64,000 nucleotides of DNA from an uncultured Porphyromonadaceae bacterium (GTDB taxonomy: Bacteria; Bacteroidota; Bacteroidia; Bacteroidales; Muribaculaceae): NCBI GenBank assembly GCA_945916235.1, contig CAMEGQ010000003.1:1-64000 (forward strand), given 5' to 3'. A program made the position numbers and the translations under genes. This document shows, piece after piece, positions 3,397 to 40,624 of the stretch (positions within the stretch are counted from its first letter, which is position 1; each line of letters opens with the position of its first letter). Below the pieces are notes generated by a model. That model made no database searches. It worked only from the letters and a program-made list of their open reading frames with translations, and was not told where the DNA came from.

Positions 3397-4248
3397 CTAA
3401 CTGATTCGGACGGGCTTCTGGCCTTTGGAGGCGGTGGATTTGCCGTAGGCTACGGCATGGTGGGGGCAGGCGTGGTAGCAGCGCAGACACATGGCGCATG
3501 CCGGGCCCCACTGGGGGCGACTATGAGAGGTCGGGGCCAACTGCGGGCGACCGGGAGAGGCCGCCACAGCCCCGGAAACGGGCCTCTCTGCCACTTTTTC
3601 CGCTCCGGCAATAGAGATGTTGCCCATGGGGCAAGAACGCGCACAGAGGCCGCAGGAGGTGCAGGCGTCGGTGGTATGGAAGGGGAGCGGCGACATAAGA
3701 AAGGCGGCGAACAGATGGCTTACGATATGCGTCTTGACCCAGGCCCAGGAGCCGCGCTCAAGATCCGACAGCGAGGAGCCGCGGGCGATTTCCGAGGCTA
3801 TATGCTCTACCCGGGCTGGCATGGCGGCAAGTTTGGCCTGGGCTACTTCGGCTGAATCGACATCAAACCCCTTGAGACATACGTAGGTGTTGGGCATTGT
3901 GACCGACCAGGCTCCGCGCGGATTCCAGCCGCGATGGCTCAGGGCATCGGCCCATACGGCGTCGGTCCAGCCGGTATCGTCACCGCAAGTGACTACAAGA
4001 TAATGGTTTACTTTCGGAAAGCATTTCATGCGGCACCGGCGGATGAACCGGCGCACCACTCCCGGCAGCGTCCAGGCGTAGACCGGAGTCACCCATACGA
4101 CTCTTTCCGCCTCTTTCACCTCAGCCTCAAACCGCTTCGGCTCGCGCAGGATATCCCCCTCCAGCCGCGTCACGCTCTCCCCGAGATGCCGGGCGAGCGC
4201 CATGGCCACCGCCAGAGAATTGCCTGTCCCCGAAAAACAGATTATCAC
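3397..4248 (-). CDS. EFR1-type flavodoxin/4Fe-4S ferredoxin fusion protein
   Basis: N-terminal flavodoxin-like MIICFSGTGNSLAVA; C-terminal cysteine motifs CTSCGLCARSCP and CAMCLRCYHACP. Confidence 0.85.
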   Translation of the reverse strand: MIICFSGTGNSLAVAMALARHLGESVTRLEGDILREPKRFEAEVKEAERVVWVTPVYAWTLPGVVRRFIRRCRMKCFPKVNHYLVVTCGDDTGWTDAVWADALSHRGWNPRGAWSVTMPNTYVCLKGFDVDSAEVAQAKLAAMPARVEHIASEIARGSSLSDLERGSWAWVKTHIVSHLFAAFLMSPLPFHTTDACTSCGLCARSCPMGNISIAGAEKVAERPVSGAVAASPGRPQLAPTSHSRPQWGPACAMCLRCYHACPHHAVAYGKSTASKGQKPVRIS

Positions 4249-4257
4249 AGTCCTTAA

Positions 4258-5373
4258 TTATTTAATTGTCACCTGAGTTGCGCCGTAGCCGTATTCGCGG
4301 AATGAAGCATCCTGAACGCGATGCTCCTTGTAGCGGTAGTTGAGCTCCTTCGTCAGAGCCTGACGGAGCACTCCCTCCCCCTTGCCATGGATAAATACAA
4401 TCTTCTGGCCGTGGTTGCGCAGATTCTCGTCCATCACGCTGCGGAAGGTATCCACCTGATAATTCAGTATGTCGGCAGGGCTCATTCCGGCGGTGGTGTC
4501 GAGCAGTTCGCCGGCATGGAGATCAACCACCAGAGTGCCCTCGGCGTTCTTCTGCGCCTTCGATTTTTTAGGCTGGGGTGCGATGTCGCGGCGCTTCACC
4601 GGACGGGCATCGCGGCGCTTCTTCTGAAGCAGCGCCTCCTCCAGGCCCGACGAATCGATGGTCATGGCCCGCTGGGGGATATCGTTTTTGACAATGTCGA
4701 CAGCAATCACAGGCTCGTCGAAGTAGGGGTTGGCGTGGAAGCAATGGAGCTTGAAGAATTTTGTGGTGTCGAGGCGCTGCTCCACAGCCACAGGCGCCTT
4801 GAGGGCAAAGGGCTTATCGCGTTTGAAGGCCACATACTGGAAAGCCACGCGGTCGAGGCGCGCCACTTGTTCGCGGGTCAGCTCCTCGATGAAGATCTGG
4901 ATGTTCGGTTCGACCAGTCCGGCCCATCGGGTAGTCCACCCCTCGTCGCCGTCAGCCCGCGAGAGATAGGTCAGATAGAGATAATAGTTGGAATCATTGA
5001 CCAAATAGGCTTCGAATCCGGTGGTTGACAGGTGCTTAAGTTCCATGGCCTCATAGGCGAACACCACATTGAGTCTGTCGCCTCCGGGGGTCTCGAGCAT
5101 CGGGGCCGGAGCGGGCGCCTCAGGCACTACGGTCTTCACCTCTTTGCTGCGGCGCTCGGCCTCGTCGGCCTCTTTCTTCTGCGCCGTGCCGCCGAACACG
5201 TCCTTACGCATGGCCTGCTCGCCGGCTGCCGACACCACCACCAGCTCTTTCATGAGCACAGGAGTGACGAAGCCGTCGTCTTCCTCCACATGGGCTATCT
5301 GACCGTCGACTTTCACCACAGTTCCGCCGCCGGTAGAACTCAAAAACCTCACGATATCTCCAACTTTTGCCAT
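4258..5373 (-). CDS. DUF2027/Smr-domain protein
   Basis: N-term GDIVRFLSSTGGGTVVKVDGQIAHVEEDDGF; C-terminal Smr motif VDLHAGELLD...FIHGKGEGVLRQAL. Confidence 0.85.
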   Translation of the reverse strand: MAKVGDIVRFLSSTGGGTVVKVDGQIAHVEEDDGFVTPVLMKELVVVSAAGEQAMRKDVFGGTAQKKEADEAERRSKEVKTVVPEAPAPAPMLETPGGDRLNVVFAYEAMELKHLSTTGFEAYLVNDSNYYLYLTYLSRADGDEGWTTRWAGLVEPNIQIFIEELTREQVARLDRVAFQYVAFKRDKPFALKAPVAVEQRLDTTKFFKLHCFHANPYFDEPVIAVDIVKNDIPQRAMTIDSSGLEEALLQKKRRDARPVKRRDIAPQPKKSKAQKNAEGTLVVDLHAGELLDTTAGMSPADILNYQVDTFRSVMDENLRNHGQKIVFIHGKGEGVLRQALTKELNYRYKEHRVQDASFREYGYGATQVTIK

Positions 5374-13781: not shown

Positions 13782-14639
13782 ATGGAAAACGAACCGAAAA
13801 AGACCGTCAGCGAGCCGAAAAGGACCGATGGAGATTCGAAAGAGAAAGTCATCGAACCGAAAAGGACCGATAGAGATTCGAAAGAGAAAGTCATCGAACC
13901 GAAAAGGATAGTCATCATGGGAGCGACCTCCGGTATCGGACTCGCCGTGGCCGAGCGGCTGTTGGCCGACGGGTGCCGGCTGGGAATAGCCGGAAGAAAT
14001 GCCGAGTCGCTCCGGCAGCTTGAGCAGCGCTGGCCGGGTCAGGTGGTTTACTCCGAAATCGACATCACCGAAGATAAAGCGGTCGGTCGGCTCGAAGACC
14101 TAATCAGTAGGCTCGGAGGTATGGATACATATTTCCATATCTCCGGGGTAGGCTACGAAAACAGCACGATGGCCACGCCGCCAGAAGTGCGAACGATGGA
14201 AACTAACGTCACCGGGTTCGTGCGCATGATGTCTACAGCCTACCGCTATTTCCGCAGCCACGGAGGCAAAGGCCACATCGCCGCCATCACCTCGGTGGCC
14301 GGAACCAAAGGGATCGGCCATCTGGCTGCTTACAGCACTTCAAAACGCGCACAGCAGACCTACCTCGTGGCCCTTGAGCAGCTGGCCAACGAGCAGGGCC
14401 TTTCTATCCGCTTTTCCGACATACGCCCCGGATGGGTTCGCACTCCTCTGCTTGCTGAAGGCGAGAAATATCCGATGCTGATGAGCGTCGATTACGCCGC
14501 GGACCGCATCATCCGAGGCCTTCATCGCCGGGTGACGGTGGTCGACTGGCGATGGGGAATCCTCACCGCCCTCTGGCGCCTCATCCCCAACCGCCTGTGG
14601 GTCCACATGCGCCTCAACACCAACCTCCACCTGAAATAG
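13782..14639 (+). CDS. SDR family oxidoreductase with repetitive N-terminal extension
   Basis: RIVIMGATSGIGLAVAERLL; AAYSTSKRAQQTYL (YxxxK); 14-aa repeats precede the Rossmann fold. Confidence 0.85.
   Translation: MENEPKKTVSEPKRTDGDSKEKVIEPKRTDRDSKEKVIEPKRIVIMGATSGIGLAVAERLLADGCRLGIAGRNAESLRQLEQRWPGQVVYSEIDITEDKAVGRLEDLISRLGGMDTYFHISGVGYENSTMATPPEVRTMETNVTGFVRMMSTAYRYFRSHGGKGHIAAITSVAGTKGIGHLAAYSTSKRAQQTYLVALEQLANEQGLSIRFSDIRPGWVRTPLLAEGEKYPMLMSVDYAADRIIRGLHRRVTVVDWRWGILTALWRLIPNRLWVHMRLNTNLHLK
13806..13907 (+). repeat. 42-bp tandem direct repeat (~2.4 copies) in SDR N-terminus
   Basis: GTCAKCGARCCGAAAAGGACCGATRGAGATTCGAAAGAGAAA units at 13806, 13848 and partial 13890. Confidence 0.9.
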
Positions 14640-14733
14640 CTCCCCCGCGACTTTCGATTGATTTGTATAAGAAGGCGAAAAAGCGTAATTTTGCCATATC
14701 AGGGTAAGTGGGCCCGGCAAAATCAGAGACATT

Positions 14734-15966
14734 ATGGCGCTTAATTGGATTTGGATCGCTTTCTTTGTGGTAGCCTTCGCGGTAGCGGTGTTCAAGACCG
14801 TATTCCTGGGGGATATGAGCGTATGGAGCGAAGTGATGGGAGCTTCGTTTCAGTCGGCTGCCACAGCATTCGAGATATCATTGGGTCTGGCGGGGATACT
14901 GTCCCTTTGGCTCGGACTGATGAAAATCGGCGAACAGGCCGGGGTAATCGGCTGGTTCGGCCGATTGATTTCGCCGCTGTTCTGCCGCCTGTTTCCCGGG
15001 GTGCCTAAGGGGCATCCTGCCATGGGGTCGATTTTCATGAACGTATCGGCCAATATGCTCGGCCTCGACAACGCCGCCACTCCGCTCGGCCTCAAAGCCA
15101 TGCAGGAACTCCAGACCCTCAACAAAGAGAAAGATACAGCCACCGACGCCATGATTATGTTCCTGATACTCAACGCGTCAGGACTATGCTTCATCCCCAT
15201 CAGCATCATGATGTACCGCGCCCGGGCCGGGGCAGCCAACCCTACCGACGTGTTCATGCCGATACTTCTGGCCACGTTTATCTCCACGTTTGTAGGCATT
15301 GTGGCGCTCTGCCTCAAGCAGCGCATAAGGCTTACCGACCCGGTGCTGGCGGCATGGCTGGCTGGTATGGCGCTGGTCATCGGCGGCATCGTGTGGATCT
15401 TCAGCGGTATGGAAGGAAGGGCAGTGGAGCGCTGGTCGACATTTTTCGCAAACGCGCTGCTGTTCGGAGTGGTAATATCATTCATATTAGCCGGAGCCAT
15501 AAAGCGCATCAACGTATATGCCACCTTTATTGAAGGGGCTAAGGAAGGATTCCACACGGCTGTCACCATAATCCCCTATCTGGTGGCCATCCTGGTGGCC
15601 ATCGGGATGTTCCGTGCCTCCGGAGCCATGGAACTGATCACCGAGTGGACCACCTCGGCTGTGGCAGCCTGCGGCCTCGACACCCAATGGGTTGAAGCCC
15701 TCCCGACGGCATTGATGAAACCGCTCTCCGGGAGCGGATCGCGCGGCCTGATGGTCGACCTTATGGCCACCCACGGCCCCGATGCCTTCGTCAGCCGTGT
15801 GTCGGCGGCGATTCAGGGGTCAACTGATACCATGTTCTATGTTCTGGCGGTCTATTTCGGGTCGGTAGGCATCAGAAAGACCAGATATGCAGTAGGTTAC
15901 GCTCTGCTGGCCGACTTCTCCGGGACGTTGGCAGGAGTGCTTGCCGCCTACCTGTTTTTCGGATGA
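14734..15966 (+). CDS. nucleoside recognition domain protein (SpmA-SpmB fusion type)
   Basis: GSIFMNVSANMLGLDNAATPLGLKAM and C-terminal PLSGSGSRGLMVDLMATHGPDAFVSRVSAAIQGSTDTMFYVLAVYFGSVGIRKTRYA. Confidence 0.88.
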   Translation: MALNWIWIAFFVVAFAVAVFKTVFLGDMSVWSEVMGASFQSAATAFEISLGLAGILSLWLGLMKIGEQAGVIGWFGRLISPLFCRLFPGVPKGHPAMGSIFMNVSANMLGLDNAATPLGLKAMQELQTLNKEKDTATDAMIMFLILNASGLCFIPISIMMYRARAGAANPTDVFMPILLATFISTFVGIVALCLKQRIRLTDPVLAAWLAGMALVIGGIVWIFSGMEGRAVERWSTFFANALLFGVVISFILAGAIKRINVYATFIEGAKEGFHTAVTIIPYLVAILVAIGMFRASGAMELITEWTTSAVAACGLDTQWVEALPTALMKPLSGSGSRGLMVDLMATHGPDAFVSRVSAAIQGSTDTMFYVLAVYFGSVGIRKTRYAVGYALLADFSGTLAGVLAAYLFFG

Positions 15967-32534: not shown

Positions 32535-33137
32535 ATGTTTTCGGGAATTGTAGAAGAAGCGGCCACAGTGGTCAAAGCTGTGCGCGAAGGCGGCAACGTC
32601 CACCTGACGCTCAGATGCAGTTTTGTCGACGAGCTGAAAATCGACCAGTCGGTAGCCCACAACGGGGTCTGCCTGACGGTGGTGGCTATCGCCGACGGCA
32701 CCTACACCGTGACAGCCATCGAGGAGACGCTGCGCCGCAGCAATTTAGGCCTGCTCAAAGAGGGCGACAGAGTGAACGTGGAGCGCTGCATGCTGATGAA
32801 CGGCCGACTGGACGGCCACATCGTGCAAGGCCACGTAGACTGCACCGCCCGCTGCGAAGCCATCGAGGAGGTGGAGGGAAGCCGCTACTTCCTGTTCCGC
32901 TACGAGGTGGACGAGGCTATGGCCCGCAAGGGTTACGTCACAGTGGAAAAAGGATCGGTTACGGTCAACGGCGTCAGCCTGACGGTCTGCGACTCCGAGC
33001 GCGACTCTTTCCGCGTAGCTATCATCCCCTATACCTTCGAGCATACGAATTTCGGCGACATCCGGGTAGGCTCCACAGTCAATATCGAATTCGACATCAT
33101 CGGAAAATACCTCGCCCGGCTGGCCACCTGCCTCTGA
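32535..33137 (+). CDS. ribE: riboflavin synthase alpha subunit
   Basis: MFSGIVEEAATV; VAHNGVCLTVV; RLDGHIVQGHVDCTA; VTVNGVSLTV. Confidence 0.95.
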   Translation: MFSGIVEEAATVVKAVREGGNVHLTLRCSFVDELKIDQSVAHNGVCLTVVAIADGTYTVTAIEETLRRSNLGLLKEGDRVNVERCMLMNGRLDGHIVQGHVDCTARCEAIEEVEGSRYFLFRYEVDEAMARKGYVTVEKGSVTVNGVSLTVCDSERDSFRVAIIPYTFEHTNFGDIRVGSTVNIEFDIIGKYLARLATCL

Positions 33138-33174
33138 CGTTCCACTCACATTCAATTCTACCAACAACAAAATG

Positions 33175-33196
33175 AAAGCCGCCTTCGGGTGGCTTT
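33175..33196 (+). terminator. intrinsic terminator after ribE
   Basis: AAAGCCGCC-TTCG-GGTGGCTTT followed by T-rich tract. Confidence 0.8.
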
Positions 33197-33222
33197 TATT
33201 TTGTTGAAATAACGGAATTTAC

Positions 33223-33230
33223 TAAATTTG
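33223..33230 (+). promoter_or_regulatory. -7 promoter box TAAATTTG upstream of GH31 gene
   Basis: TAnnTTTG match with TTTTG ~20 nt upstream. Confidence 0.6.
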
Positions 33231-33267
33231 CAGATGGGGGTCGCCCAATGGCGGCCATACGTATGCC

Positions 33268-35682
33268 ATGAAGATTATACTTACATTCAAACGATCAATG
33301 CTCGCAGCCGCCGTGGCTGCGGCAGCAATGAGCGCTCAGGCGCAAGTGATAGAAAATCTGCAACCTCTGGGGAGCGTCAGCTGGACCACACCCGAAGGGA
33401 GAGTTGTGACGGTGGAAGCCATCACAGCCAACATCTTTAAAGTCAGCAATACAGCCGCCAAAAAAGCGGCTCACGGACTTACGGCCGACAATGCTGATGC
33501 CGTATTGAAAGGCACGAAAGGCGGTCTTCATGCCGTGGTCGACGAGGCCACGGGGTCGGTGATGATTCTTTCGCCCGACGGACGCGGAATCTTCGACTCC
33601 GGCAAACGTCAGGAGGGGATCCGCGCTCTCGACAGCGATAAGATCCGCGATGGTAAGGTTGGCGCCAAGCGCTTTTCGCTCAAGCAGTTGGGCGACGGGC
33701 ACACCTATTTCGGAGCCGGAGAGCGCGGCCACAAACTGAATTTTGCCGGCGATACTCTGGTGAACTACAACCGCCAGAACTACGGCTACACAGGCACCGA
33801 CCCGCGCATCTCGCAGATGAACATCACCATGCCCCTTCTGATAAGCGGCGACGGCTCAGCCATCCTCTTTGACGATTTCGCACAGTCGGCCATGACAGCC
33901 GGTGAGACGGTGGAATACACCACCGTAGCTCCCGGCGATGTGGCTTACTACTATGTTTCATCGCCCGACGGACTGAAGGGATTGCCCGAAGAATTGTCAA
34001 AAATCATTGGCACTCAGCCGCTTCCTCCGCTGTGGAGCCTCGGCTACATCACCTCGAAATATGGCTATAAGACTGCGGCTGAGGCTGATTCGGTGGTATC
34101 GGTGCTAAAGCGCGACGGCTATCCGCTCGACGGCATGGTGCTCGACCTCTATTGGTATGGAAAAGAGCAGGATATGGGCCGCCTGGCATGGGAACCGACC
34201 ACCTGGCCCGACCATGCCAAGGTGCTTAAACGTCTGAAAGACAAAGGAGTAAACATGGTGGCAATCTCACAGCCATACGTGCTCCGCAACGGCAAGGGGT
34301 TGGACAATTACAACTATCTGGCTTCCAAGGGGATGCTCGGTAAGGATGAGAAGGGCGCAGTGCGCGACGTAACCATCTGGGTAGGCGAAGGCGGGATGCT
34401 CGACGTATCCAACCCTGCGACAAGGGAGTGGCTGTCAGAAGTTTACAAGAAAAATACCGATGAAGGTATGACAGGCTGGTGGGGCGACCTGGGCGAACCG
34501 GAAGTGCACCCCGACAGCATGTATCATTATAACGGGCTGACTACCAGAGAATACCATAATCTTTACGGCAATGAATGGAGCAAAATCATCTCTGACCTCT
34601 TTGCCAAAGAATACCCCGACCGGCGCCTGATGACGCTCATGCGAGGGGGTACTACGGGGCTGCAGCGCTATTCAGTGTTCCCCTGGTCAACCGACGTGAG
34701 CCGCTCGTGGGGCGGTCTGGAGCCTCAGATCCGTATTATGCTCAACTCCGGACTCAGCGGCATGGGCTACATGAGCCACGATGTGGGCGGTTTCGCCATC
34801 GATGAAGAAAACCCCTATGAACCTGAACTTTACGTACGCTGGCTGCAGCTGGGTCTGTTCTCGCCTGTGCTCCGCACTCACGCTCAGGCCACAGCCGAAC
34901 CGTTCCATTATCCTGACCAGCAGGGGATTATACTCCCCATCATCAAAGAGCGTTACCGCTGGCTCCCCTACAATTACACCTTAGCATACGAAAACGCCGC
35001 TACGGGGATGCCGCTGGTGCGTCCCGTAGGTCTGTACAGCTCAGATCCTCAGGCGTATGCTGATGTGGAAGATGAATATCTCTGGGGCCGCGACGTGCTC
35101 GTGGCGCCGGTGCTGACCAAAGGAGCCACTGAGCGCCAAGTGCGTCTTCCCGAAGGCAAATGGGTGAATCTCAACGGTTTAAACCAAACAGTTGAAGGAG
35201 ATACCACCCTTACGGTTGCGGCTCCGCTTGAGGTAATCCCCATGTTTGCCCGCGCCGGAGCCCTGCTGACCAAGGCCGACTACAAGATGGAGAACACCCG
35301 CGACTATACTCCTGCGAATTACACTGTGGATTATTATCCCGTTGAGGGTGTGGGAGTTACCGAGGCTGAGATGTTTGAGGACAACATGACCACGCCCGAT
35401 ACGCTCCGAAAGGGCGCCTACGCTCTGCTGAAGCTTCAGGCAGATAATTCCAGCGAGGCTATAGTGCTGACTGCCAACGTAGAAGGCAGCTACGAGGGGA
35501 TGCCCGCCAAACGCGCTCTTACCTTCAGAATCCATAATGTAGCCTCGCCCAAGAGCGTCAGCACTACCGCCGGCGGCAAAAAGCTGAAAGCAGCCACTAA
35601 CTACAATTCTGAGGCCAAAGTTCTGACAGTCAGCGTCAAAAACTGGATGGGCAAGGACCTGAAAATCACCATCGACAAATAA
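33268..35682 (+). CDS. GH31 family alpha-glycosidase
   Basis: LPPLWSLGYITSKYGYKTAAEADSVV; GMVLDLYWYG; GWWGDLGEPEVHPD; SHDVGGF. Confidence 0.93.
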   Translation: MKIILTFKRSMLAAAVAAAAMSAQAQVIENLQPLGSVSWTTPEGRVVTVEAITANIFKVSNTAAKKAAHGLTADNADAVLKGTKGGLHAVVDEATGSVMILSPDGRGIFDSGKRQEGIRALDSDKIRDGKVGAKRFSLKQLGDGHTYFGAGERGHKLNFAGDTLVNYNRQNYGYTGTDPRISQMNITMPLLISGDGSAILFDDFAQSAMTAGETVEYTTVAPGDVAYYYVSSPDGLKGLPEELSKIIGTQPLPPLWSLGYITSKYGYKTAAEADSVVSVLKRDGYPLDGMVLDLYWYGKEQDMGRLAWEPTTWPDHAKVLKRLKDKGVNMVAISQPYVLRNGKGLDNYNYLASKGMLGKDEKGAVRDVTIWVGEGGMLDVSNPATREWLSEVYKKNTDEGMTGWWGDLGEPEVHPDSMYHYNGLTTREYHNLYGNEWSKIISDLFAKEYPDRRLMTLMRGGTTGLQRYSVFPWSTDVSRSWGGLEPQIRIMLNSGLSGMGYMSHDVGGFAIDEENPYEPELYVRWLQLGLFSPVLRTHAQATAEPFHYPDQQGIILPIIKERYRWLPYNYTLAYENAATGMPLVRPVGLYSSDPQAYADVEDEYLWGRDVLVAPVLTKGATERQVRLPEGKWVNLNGLNQTVEGDTTLTVAAPLEVIPMFARAGALLTKADYKMENTRDYTPANYTVDYYPVEGVGVTEAEMFEDNMTTPDTLRKGAYALLKLQADNSSEAIVLTANVEGSYEGMPAKRALTFRIHNVASPKSVSTTAGGKKLKAATNYNSEAKVLTVSVKNWMGKDLKITIDK

Positions 35683-35757
35683 TGAATCAATTATTAATCA
35701 ATAAATTAAGTATATAATTGCCCGATGGGCAACCTTAAATCCTTACCATACCGAGAG

Positions 35758-38211
35758 ATGAAGATATTTGCGACGATGCTGGCGGCAGCGCTGCCGCTGA
35801 TGGCCATGGGCAATCGCCCTGACAGCCTGATGCTGTTTTCCTATGCCAATCCCAACGGCGAAGGCGGCCTGAAACTGGCCTGGAGCGCCGACGGAGAGCA
35901 CTGGACAAAACTGAATTCCGGAAATTCCGTGGTCAACTCCGACTTCGGTCCGTGGGGCTCGATGAAGAAGATGTATGAGCCGAAGCTGACACAGGCCGCC
36001 GACGGCATGTGGGTGGCCACATGGAAACTCAAGCCGGACAACGACGCCACGGCCATGGCTCTCTCGGAAGACCTTATCCATTGGGGCGCACAGACTTACG
36101 CCCAAGGCGAGCAGAAATATGAGCCCAAGCCGGGCCATGCTTCGGCCGTAAGCACTCTGACTCCGGCTAAGGCCAAGGTGGGAAGCAAGGAGTATGTCGG
36201 ATGGGTGAATATGGTGCCCGCATCGACAGTGGAAACTCTGGAGGCATGGGGTGATGCCCGCGCCCGACATAACGAACTCTACGACCAGACGATGAGCGAG
36301 GATTCGCGCCGGTTTGCCGACCTGACGCCCCTGAAAGGGAAACTGACCGTATATCCCGAGCAGCGCAAACGCATAAGCGACAAGCTGATGGGTATCTTCT
36401 TCGAGGATATCAACTATTCCGCCGACGGCGGCCTGTATGCCGAACTGGTGCGCAACCGCGACTTCGAATTCACACCGCGCGACCACCGCGGCTGGGGTCC
36501 GGCCACAGCCTGGAGCCTGCGCAACGCCGATGGCGACTCCGTCACGCTGACCATCGCCACTGAAAACCCCATCCACGCCAACAATCCGCATTACGTCACC
36601 CTACAAGGCGGCGACTGCCTCACGAACGAAGGCTTCGACGGGATTCCGGTGAAGAAAGGGGAGAAATATTTCGTGAGTCTTTTCGGCAGAGCCGTAAAGG
36701 GCGGTGCCAATCGTGCTATAGTGCAATTGATTGACCCACAGGGTAATATTATCGGCAAAGCCGACCTGAAATTTGGAAAGAAAGGGTGGAAAAAAGCCGA
36801 GACCACACTGACGGCCTCGCAAAGCTGCAAGGATGCCACCCTGCGGGTGAGCGTACCCGAAGGGGCGACAGCCGACCTCGATATGATTTCGCTGATGCCC
36901 GAGAAAACATTCAAAGGGCGCCGCAACGGCCTGCGTGAAGATCTGGCACAGACTTTGGCCGACCTTAATCCGAAGTTTGTACGCTTCCCCGGCGGATGTG
37001 TGGCCCATGGCGACGGCATCGACAATATCTACGACTGGAAGGGTTCGATCGGACCGCTCGAAGCGCGCAAGCCGCTGAGCAATCTCTGGGGATACCATCA
37101 GACCCGCGGACTGGGTTATCACGAATATTTCCTCTTTTGTGAGGACATCGGCGCCCAGCCGCTCCCGGTGGTTGCTGCCGGAGTACCCTGCCAGAATTCG
37201 GGAAAGAGCTGGCACGGAGCGCATGATCTGGTCACCTCATGCGGTCAGCAGGGCGGTATCCCGATGGATTCGCTCGACAGCTATATCCAGGATGTGCTCG
37301 ACCTTATCGAGTATGCCAACGGCGACGCCAAGACCACCCGCTGGGGCCGCGAACGCGCCAAAGCCGGACACCCTGCTCCCTTCAATCTAAAGATGATAGG
37401 GATAGGAAATGAGGATATGATCACCGAGGTATTTGCCGAGCGCTTTAAAGCGATCAACAAGGCTGTGACAGCGAAATATCCTGATATCAAGGTGGTTGGC
37501 ACAGTCGGCCCGTTCTATGAAGGCACCGACTACGATCTGGGCTGGCAGCTGGCCACCGAAGAAGGCCTTCCGCTTGTCGACGAGCACTACTATGTGAAGC
37601 CCGGCTGGCTTATCCACAATCAGCATTACTACGACTACTACGACCGTAAAAAGCCTCACGTATATCTGGGCGAATGGGCCGCCCACCTCGACGGACGTCC
37701 GTCGAACATCGAGACAGCTCTGGCCGAAGCCCTCTGGCTGACAGCCGTAGAGCGCAACGCCGATGTGGTGGAGATAGCCTCATATGCCCCGCTGCTGGCC
37801 AAAGAGAAGCATACGCAGTGGCGTCCCGACCTGATTTACTTCAACAATTCCGAAGTGAAACCGACTGTCGACTACTACATTCAGCAGCTGTACGGCGAAA
37901 ATCCCGGAGCCGAGTATGTCAGCTCGGAGCTGAAACTCGACGGAGGTCAGCGCGCCGACGTGACGCGCCGCGTGGCCGTTTCTGTGACGCTTTCGCCCGA
38001 AGGGAAGGAGATAGTCAAGATAGCCAACCTGCTTCCGGTGGAAGTGACCCTCGAACTGGAGGGGGTAGATGGCGGCAAAGAGTTCACGCGTACCGAAATC
38101 AGCGGCAAACCCGCCGATACAGATTCCAAACCCGTCGAGAAGCACGCCTGGACCTCAGGCCAGCAAATCACCCTCCCCGCCTATTCCTTTACCCTCCTCA
38201 GAGAAAATTAA
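35758..38211 (+). CDS. GH51 alpha-L-arabinofuranosidase with N-terminal beta-propeller-like (GH43-like) segment
   Basis: GH51: GIFFEDINYSADGGLYAELVRNRDFEF, RFPGGCVAHGD, MIGIGNEDM, VYLGEWAAH. N-term: LAWSADGEHWTKL ... ALSEDLIHW. Confidence 0.9.
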   Translation: MKIFATMLAAALPLMAMGNRPDSLMLFSYANPNGEGGLKLAWSADGEHWTKLNSGNSVVNSDFGPWGSMKKMYEPKLTQAADGMWVATWKLKPDNDATAMALSEDLIHWGAQTYAQGEQKYEPKPGHASAVSTLTPAKAKVGSKEYVGWVNMVPASTVETLEAWGDARARHNELYDQTMSEDSRRFADLTPLKGKLTVYPEQRKRISDKLMGIFFEDINYSADGGLYAELVRNRDFEFTPRDHRGWGPATAWSLRNADGDSVTLTIATENPIHANNPHYVTLQGGDCLTNEGFDGIPVKKGEKYFVSLFGRAVKGGANRAIVQLIDPQGNIIGKADLKFGKKGWKKAETTLTASQSCKDATLRVSVPEGATADLDMISLMPEKTFKGRRNGLREDLAQTLADLNPKFVRFPGGCVAHGDGIDNIYDWKGSIGPLEARKPLSNLWGYHQTRGLGYHEYFLFCEDIGAQPLPVVAAGVPCQNSGKSWHGAHDLVTSCGQQGGIPMDSLDSYIQDVLDLIEYANGDAKTTRWGRERAKAGHPAPFNLKMIGIGNEDMITEVFAERFKAINKAVTAKYPDIKVVGTVGPFYEGTDYDLGWQLATEEGLPLVDEHYYVKPGWLIHNQHYYDYYDRKKPHVYLGEWAAHLDGRPSNIETALAEALWLTAVERNADVVEIASYAPLLAKEKHTQWRPDLIYFNNSEVKPTVDYYIQQLYGENPGAEYVSSELKLDGGQRADVTRRVAVSVTLSPEGKEIVKIANLLPVEVTLELEGVDGGKEFTRTEISGKPADTDSKPVEKHAWTSGQQITLPAYSFTLLREN

Positions 38212-39101
38212 GAGCCGAGGATAAGGAGGAAAAGCGAGAGGAGGAGGATTGAGAGGTCGATGAGCTTTTGGCGGATGTGCTGCTCGTGAAGCACCCAGAT
38301 ACCGAAAGCGAACGACACCAGCACGCTGCCGCGGCGGATCATCGACACCACCGAAATCATGGAGTCGGGCTGCGAAAGCGAATAGAAATAGCAGATGTCG
38401 GCTCCGGTGAGGAACACCGAGATGCCTACTATCGACCAGCGCCAATGAAATGCCGTATCGGAATGGCTGCCCCCGCGGGTGGCCATTGCCGTACGTGTAA
38501 GAATCAGTACCACCCCACTCATAATGATGGCCTGATACAGCGAATACCATGCCTGAACCTCCAGCGGACGGTACATCCCCAGCAGGTATTTATCGTAGAG
38601 TGCCGATACAGCGCCTAAAACAGTGGCTCCTATCGACATCCATAGCCACCGCGAATGTTTGAACGAGAAACCCTCTTTGGAGCCTATGCGCGATATGAAG
38701 AAGAGCGAAGCGAACCCCAGCAGTATACCCGTCCACTGGAGCAGATTGAGTCTTTCGCCAAATATCAGAAGCGCTCCGACGAGCACCATTACCGGACGGG
38801 TTGCATTGATAGGCCCCTGGATGGTGAGCGGAAGATGCTTTATAGCGAAATATCCGAGTATCCACGATGAAAGCACTATCACAGCCTTGGCCACAATCTG
38901 CAGATGTCCCGTAATGGTGTTGCCAAGACCGTAGTTGCCTTCAAGTATGCCTGAGATGAGCACTGGCGAGAGAAGGAGAGTGCCGAACACAGTGTTAAGA
39001 AGAAGCACTATGGGGACATTATTCCCCTTCAGCGAAATCTTCTTCATTATATCGTAGAAGCCCAGTCCGACGGCCGAGCATATAGCGAGCAGGATCCACA
39101 T
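38208..39101 (-). CDS. EamA/DMT family transporter
   Basis: ~10 hydrophobic segments; GPINATRPVMVLVGALLIFGERLNLLQWTGILLGFASLF. Confidence 0.85.
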   Translation of the reverse strand: MWILLAICSAVGLGFYDIMKKISLKGNNVPIVLLLNTVFGTLLLSPVLISGILEGNYGLGNTITGHLQIVAKAVIVLSSWILGYFAIKHLPLTIQGPINATRPVMVLVGALLIFGERLNLLQWTGILLGFASLFFISRIGSKEGFSFKHSRWLWMSIGATVLGAVSALYDKYLLGMYRPLEVQAWYSLYQAIIMSGVVLILTRTAMATRGGSHSDTAFHWRWSIVGISVFLTGADICYFYSLSQPDSMISVVSMIRRGSVLVSFAFGIWVLHEQHIRQKLIDLSILLLSLFLLILGS

Positions 39102-39180
39102 AAAGTTATCAGAAGTTATTAGAGCGGCTTTTAATTCGGGTGCAAAATTAGTAAATTTGTATTATATGGGGCCTCGGAGC

Positions 39181-39631
39181 CTGATACAAAATTTCATCCG
39201 GCCCGCATCCATAAAATTTTCCACTTTACTGTGGAAAAAGGTGTGGAAAAGTAGGGTGGAAAAAAGTAATATAAAAGTTGGCTTTGATAGATGGAGAAAG
39301 GGTATATAAAAGAAAATGAACGCCGCAAAATATTGCATACGGAGTTTATGAGCGGGTTATCTCAGGGATTTTCCACAGAAAAAGGTATGGAATGTGGGAG
39401 AAAGTTGCTAACTTTGCACATTATCAACATGATGTTGATAAACATAGGTAATGGCTGATTATCAAAGCTTGGGGAGTTGATAAAGTATGGAATACTGCTT
39501 GATAAACTTCAATAACCCTAAAATGCAAGAAAAGCGCTTAGAAGTTTTCCAAGGTTTCAACAGCTATTATTCATATTAGGGGGAAGAGATTTTTTAAAGA
39601 TAAATTTTTCAATTCATAGAATTATAAATAA
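39181..39631. other. oriC: candidate chromosomal replication origin (oriC): DnaA-box cluster in AT-rich non-coding DNA
   Basis: Exact TTTTCCACA/TGTGGAAAA at 39230-39238, 39242-39250, 39369-39377; exact TTATCAACA/TGTTGATAA at 39421-39429 and 39433-39441; one-mismatch sites at 39217, 39255, 39475; AT-rich flanks. Confidence 0.7.
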
Positions 39632-40624
39632 ATGAATGTTGAAAAAGGTTTCGTAGACGCTCCGATAGAGGAGGGGATTGACCTCAAACAGGCGATTCTT
39701 CAGTTGAAGAAGGAAAAGAATGCAGCCATTCTGGCCCACTACTATCAGAAGAAGGAGATACAGGAAGTGGCCGACTTCATCGGCGACTCGCTGGCCTTGG
39801 CCCGTATCGCCCAGCGTCTGGATAATCCGATCATAGTGATGTGCGGAGTCCACTTCATGGGAGAGACGGCCAAGATACTCTGTCCTGACAAGAAGGTGCT
39901 CCTTCCCGATGTGAACGCCGGATGTTCGCTGGCCGATTCGTGTAAGGCTGAAGATCTGAAAAAGGTGAAGGAGGAAAATCCCGGGCTGACGGTGGTAAGC
40001 TATGTCAACACCACAGCCGATGTGAAGGCTCTGACTGATGTGGTGGTCACATCTTCCAACGCCCTGCAGATTGTGGATGCTCTGCCCAAGGATGCAAGAA
40101 TCCTGTTTGGCCCCGACCGCAATCTCGGAAGCTACGTCAGTGCCCGCACCGGCAGGGAGATGAAGATATGGGATGGTGCATGCCATGTGCATGAGCAATT
40201 TTCCACCGAGGGGATTGTGGCTCTCAAGAAAGAGCATCCCGGGGCGAAGGTGCTGGTGCATCCCGAATGTAAGAAGTCGATAGTGATACTTGCCGACAAG
40301 GTAGGGTCAACGGCAGCCCTGCTGAAATATGCTCAGCAGAGTGATGCCGCCGAATTCATAGTGGCCACAGAGCCGGGAATCATCGTCGAGATGCAGAAGA
40401 GCTGCCCCGGCAAGACTTTCATCCCGGCTCCGCCCGAGACGAGCGAAGGCACCGTGGGCTGCGGATGCAACGACTGCGCCTATATGAAGCTCAACACCCT
40501 CGAAAAGCTTTACAACACTCTCAAATATGAGCTTCCGGAGGTGAAGGTTGATGAAGAAGTGGCAGCCAAGGCTATAAAACCTATCGAGAAGATGCTCGAA
40601 ATGAGCGAACAACTCGGCATTTAA
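39632..40624 (+). CDS. nadA: quinolinate synthase A
   Basis: [75 protein letters not shown]. Confidence 0.96.

Follow-up and report, generated by a model that had tools for sequence, protein, structure and literature searches.

The replication origin of Escherichia coli, oriC, lies separate from dnaA and combines DnaA boxes with AT-rich unwinding DNA. In the oriC of Bacillus subtilis, the basal unwinding system (BUS) consists of DnaA-boxes 6 and 7 and DnaA-trios: tandem boxes, a short GC-containing spacer, and three or more trinucleotides in phase whose middle base on the bound strand is A, followed by AT-rich DNA (PMC6669920, PMC8287927). The published search criterion for a BUS is a DnaA-box pair within 16 bp of three or more NAN trios, and E. 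coli scores weakly for this system (PMC8287927). For the Bacteroidetes, the part of PMC4755523 considered here describes the predicted oriC of chromosome I of Prevotella intermedia OMA14 and other DoriC origins as non-coding segments of about 0.4 to 0.5 kb that lie far from dnaA and hold several DnaA boxes at a transition in GC skew; that part of the text gives neither a gene neighbor nor an unwinding module for the OMA14 origin, which is likened to ours by description and not by sequence. The literature that we searched, which did not extend to DoriC entries, yielded no published link between nadA and oriC and no experimentally mapped Bacteroidales origin; we do not claim first discovery.

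We analyzed a 64,000-nt stretch of DNA (the window) in which an earlier note had proposed a candidate oriC upstream of nadA. An excess of DnaA boxes, conservation, and a skew switch at the element in relatives all support that proposal, and we judge that the 0.4-kb region before nadA is very probably (roughly 0.94) the chromosomal replication origin of this gut-type Bacteroidales bacterium. It shares with the OMA14 origin the features described above, and with the E. coli origin its position apart from dnaA and its boxes and AT-rich DNA; gene context and box arrangement differ from those of E. coli. Tandem boxes, a short GC-containing spacer, in-phase trinucleotides with a central A on the strand that DnaA would bind, and AT-rich DNA beyond them recall the B. 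subtilis BUS. Unlike the BUS, the element is not beside dnaA; most of its putative trios read 3′-AAT/AAG-5′ rather than 3′-GAT-5′, and its trio-proximal boxes deviate from TTATCCACA. An oriC at this place is an essential but ordinary element of a known kind. What the analysis adds, well supported by the sequence comparisons, is an apparent origin landmark that can be found by sequence across the order, with a candidate unwinding module, and that occupies the same place before nadA in most of the close relatives considered. Bacteroidales are major bacteria of the gut; a homologous element that is locatable in draft genomes, even when displaced, would anchor coverage-based growth-rate estimates and replichore-aware assembly checks and would provide a minimal fragment for mini-chromosome and DnaA unwinding assays.

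A cluster of DnaA boxes upstream of nadA

A non-coding gap of 530 bp (39102–39631) separates a divergent upstream gene for an EamA-family transporter (38208–39101, − strand; Pfam PF00892) from nadA, which encodes quinolinate synthase (39632–40624, + strand; Pfam PF02445). Its GC content is 34%; most of the window lies at 50 to 60%. Exact TTWTCMACA sites number five in the gap against a mean of 0.04 in dinucleotide shuffles, and sites with at most one mismatch number nine against 1.05 (0/5000 shuffles reached either count). The earlier note would have taken a box density no higher than in other intergenic regions as a refutation; within the window, the gap proved densest: the runner-up 400-bp stretch has three sites with at most one mismatch, and the other AT-rich stretches have between none and two each. 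The whole assembly (2.72 Mb) contains 135 exact TTWTCMACA sites, with no second cluster of this kind among the 100 matches listed. An Rfam search of the region gave nothing meaningful.

The conserved non-coding unit, hereafter the oriC element, spans 39217–39631 (+ strand) and is matched by an nhmmer profile of relatives at 39228–39660. Every box listed in the earlier note is present in it, at the coordinates given there. The distal cluster (39217–39263) comprises one-mismatch sites at 39217(+) and 39255(−) and exact TTTTCCACA/TGTGGAAAA sites at 39230(−) and 39242(−); the third exact site of this type is the TTTTCCACA box at 39369–39377 (+). The two exact TTATCAACA/TGTTGATAA sites, at 39421(+) and 39433(−), form an inverted pair, TTATCAACA-TGA-TGTTGATAA (39421–39441), which is nearly invariant as TTATnAACA..TGTTnATAA in 24 aligned loci. 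The remaining one-mismatch site, TTATCAACT (39475–39483, − strand), keeps its position in relatives as TGTTnATAA. Boxes that the earlier note had not listed are GTTTCAACA at 39554(+) and TTTTCAACA at 39637(−), the latter just within nadA. Alignment of relatives also delimits a block, AATAAC...gCAAGaAA (39511–39533, + strand), that lies within the element, has been kept throughout the order, and is not a DnaA box.

A candidate unwinding module

Box searching and comparison with relatives revealed tandem DnaA boxes on the + strand at 39545–39562, namely TTTTCCAAG (start 39545; two mismatches) and GTTTCAACA (start 39554; one mismatch), conserved in relatives as AAAGTTATC...TATnAACA. In the alignment, they are followed by a DnaA-trio-like run, CTA TTA TTC ATA TTA (39564–39578, + strand; complement 3′-GAT AAT AAG TAT AAT-5′), and then, by A+T content, by an AT-rich tract (39590–39631, + strand) that is the likely site of extended opening; A+T reaches 84% across 39602–39651. 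After the last box, the aligned columns of 67 loci give AACA-GCC-(T/A)T(A/C) repeated, with T in every third column at frequencies of 0.93, 0.90, 1.00, 0.84, and 0.81. Four or more in-phase triplets occur in 50/67 loci, compared with at most 3/67 at four control starts. Our first period-3 statistic, the difference between the best and second-best phases over 18 columns, did not reach significance (690/5000), since T is abundant in two of the three phases. With between-phase variance over the five triplets, the result was 1/200,000; this statistic was picked after the columns had been seen, so that the run-length counts with control starts are the safer evidence.

A box pair close to at least three trios, as sought in BUS searches, is thus found at 39545–39578, and tandem boxes, short spacer, and in-phase trinucleotides together match, at the level of sequence, the arrangement published for the BUS. 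The earlier note had looked for an unwinding element in AT-rich DNA. The best-supported site is the box pair with its trios and the AT-rich tract that follows them, rather than the AATATAAAAG/TATATAAAAG tracts that the note had named. By homology of layout, DnaA would bind the boxes at 39217–39263, 39369, 39421–39441, and 39475, and the tandem pair would guide a DnaA filament onto the trinucleotides. The strands would part at the trios, with the opening running into the AT-rich tract before nadA; helicase loading would follow, and two forks would then leave.

Conservation of the element

We located nadA in 113/119 genomes of the family. Upstream of it, relatives carry boxes at matching distances of about −402, −264 (the box at 39369), −190, and +5; the distal-cluster boxes at −402 and −390 both recur at these distances, and the whole region of ~430 bp can be aligned. 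An nhmmer profile built from 18 aligned nadA-upstream loci matched many more loci, including those of Bacteroides finegoldii, B. gallinarum, Mediterranea, Azobacteroides, and Paludibacter. The core model R1, which matches the window at 39393–39567 (E 1.1e-26), has matches in 113/119 family genomes and 61/198 order genomes, mostly one per genome and mostly no more than a few hundred bases from nadA. It found no match in 137/198 order genomes, and the element is therefore not universal in the order. In the family, conservation (113/119 genomes) goes together with about one copy per chromosome, as would be looked for in an oriC. Box sequences drift, and some relatives have few exact boxes; a sample of ~1.6 Mb from four relatives contained a single cluster of at least three exact boxes within 300 bp, namely the element of genome G092.

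GC skew and the location of dnaA

Cumulative G−C in the window declines up to 33 kb, stays level between 33 and 39 kb, and climbs steadily from 39 kb. From a tiny sample, the earlier note had read C≥G to the left of the locus and G≥C to the right, and the window curve agrees in direction. The minimum that the note expected near 39.3 kb was borne out in part: the rise starts at 39 kb, and the minimum itself, within the window, is the 33- to 39-kb plateau, lowest at 34,055. The right edge of this plateau is the box cluster, which fits an origin there and does not fix its position. The assembly consists of 170 contigs, and the skew of this genome is therefore local to the window. The plateau (33000–39000) spans GH31 and alpha-L-arabinofuranosidase genes on the + strand, and the segment is possibly a later insertion or inversion beside the origin.

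Among the named nadA loci of relatives that the profile matched, 60 had enough flank; mean skew in these was −0.023 upstream and +0.038 downstream, and it was lower upstream than downstream in 44 of them. Two relatives, G092 and G057, are complete or nearly complete. In G092, a single contig of 3.3 Mb, most sampled skew values are below zero as far as 1.375 Mb and above zero beyond it, and the element lies at 1,376,942; in G057, the negative-to-positive switch is at ~2.945 Mb and the element at 2,944,569. In G311, from another family, the switch falls near 0.1 Mb and the element at 107,499, at a resolution of ~50 kb and with noisy local values. The switch looked for at an origin thus coincides with the homologous element of G092, of G057, and of G250 (see below), and roughly so in G311.

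The earlier note had allowed for an oriC away from dnaA, and the element does lie away from it: an intact-looking DnaA of 460 aa is encoded on another contig, C93, where the 3.2-kb dnaA locus holds only a single exact box, and in G092 dnaA is ~600 kb from the element. A neighboring dnaA is frequent among bacterial origins but does not define them. A remote dnaA is common for Bacteroidetes origins, according to the part of PMC4755523 considered here. Identical weak Bac_DnaA-domain matches occur at ~25 places on the G092 contig (G092:C1), in 262-aa frames that most likely encode the IstB-type ATPases of an insertion sequence present in many copies.

The element apart from nadA

Several genomes have parted the element from nadA. 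In G092, it is 3 kb away, between a glucose-6-phosphate-isomerase-like gene and a gene for a 344-aa protein. In G250, from a different family (37% GC), R1, a model built on other genomes, matches at 1,652,645 (E 6.8e-9), and finer sampling puts the skew switch at the element; nadA is at 1.844 Mb, 192 kb away, and shows no switch. In further genomes, element and nadA are on separate contigs, and in G018 and G109 the element is present with no match for nadA. Of nine family genomes in which the two are apart, seven show a rise in skew across the element, from negative to positive in six; no rise was seen in the other two, G036 and G007. By comparison, a negative-to-positive change was seen at 0/4 of the nadA loci examined in these genomes. 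These nine genomes are all drafts with flanks of only ~10 kb, so that single cases are weak and the set, together with G250, carries the argument. Because the skew change tracks the element and not nadA, and the element persists after losing its place beside nadA, we rejected a plain nadA regulatory region as the main function.

A probable nadA promoter within the element

The region likely doubles in part as the nadA promoter. The sequence contains TAACTTTG (39409–39416, + strand), whose TAnnTTTG pattern we take to be the Bacteroidota-type −7 promoter motif and which is the probable nadA promoter, as well as TAATTTTG (39143–39150, − strand), a −7 motif facing the EamA gene. These two opposed motifs explain the inverted repeat I1 (39140–39158/39401–39419), which we had considered as a structure. 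In relatives with adjacent nadA, the −7 motif is conserved as TTAACTTTG; it is degraded where nadA is not adjacent, and the displaced copies at loci L140, L009, and L041 have a degraded TAACTTTG motif but retain boxes and unwinding module.

The conserved −7 motif directly precedes the box palindrome, and one could therefore read the boxes as a nadA promoter regulated by DnaA or another repressor, with no origin present. nadA has also retained a partial promoter-plus-box-pair module after the element moved, in G092 (L041 10015–10128; G092:C1:1380030–1380159) and in L159 (−170 to −77 of nadA), which hints that the boxes may also serve nadA. This reading is nevertheless very improbable as the whole explanation, since genomes with a remote nadA or none found (G018, G109, G250, and others) still have the element, displaced elements lose the promoter and keep boxes and trios, and the skew switch goes with the element. 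The boxes could regulate nadA as well, though not as their only role. Together, the separated cases indicate that the conserved function is that of an origin, in which the nadA promoter is a separable lodger. Still less credible is a DnaA-titrating cluster (datA/DARS-like) close to the origin but not at it: box clusters by themselves are no proof of an origin and the window skew plateau covers 33 to 39 kb, but the skew switch tracks the element in relatives with differing neighbors, the unwinding module is conserved, and the window has no other box cluster.

A more speculative proposal, which we regard as rather doubtful, would make origin and nadA promoter one nested unit throughout the Bacteroidales: DnaA on the palindrome that follows the −7 motif would tune NAD synthesis with initiation, and nadA, once parted from the origin, would keep its own copy of the box module.

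Locus L248 (G037:C37) carries two inverted copies of the origin element (3968–4426 and 14563–15021), each of ~460 nt and 90% alike, 10.1 kb apart and with iterated repeats on their flanks. This double element is possibly a duplicated oriC or an assembly effect.
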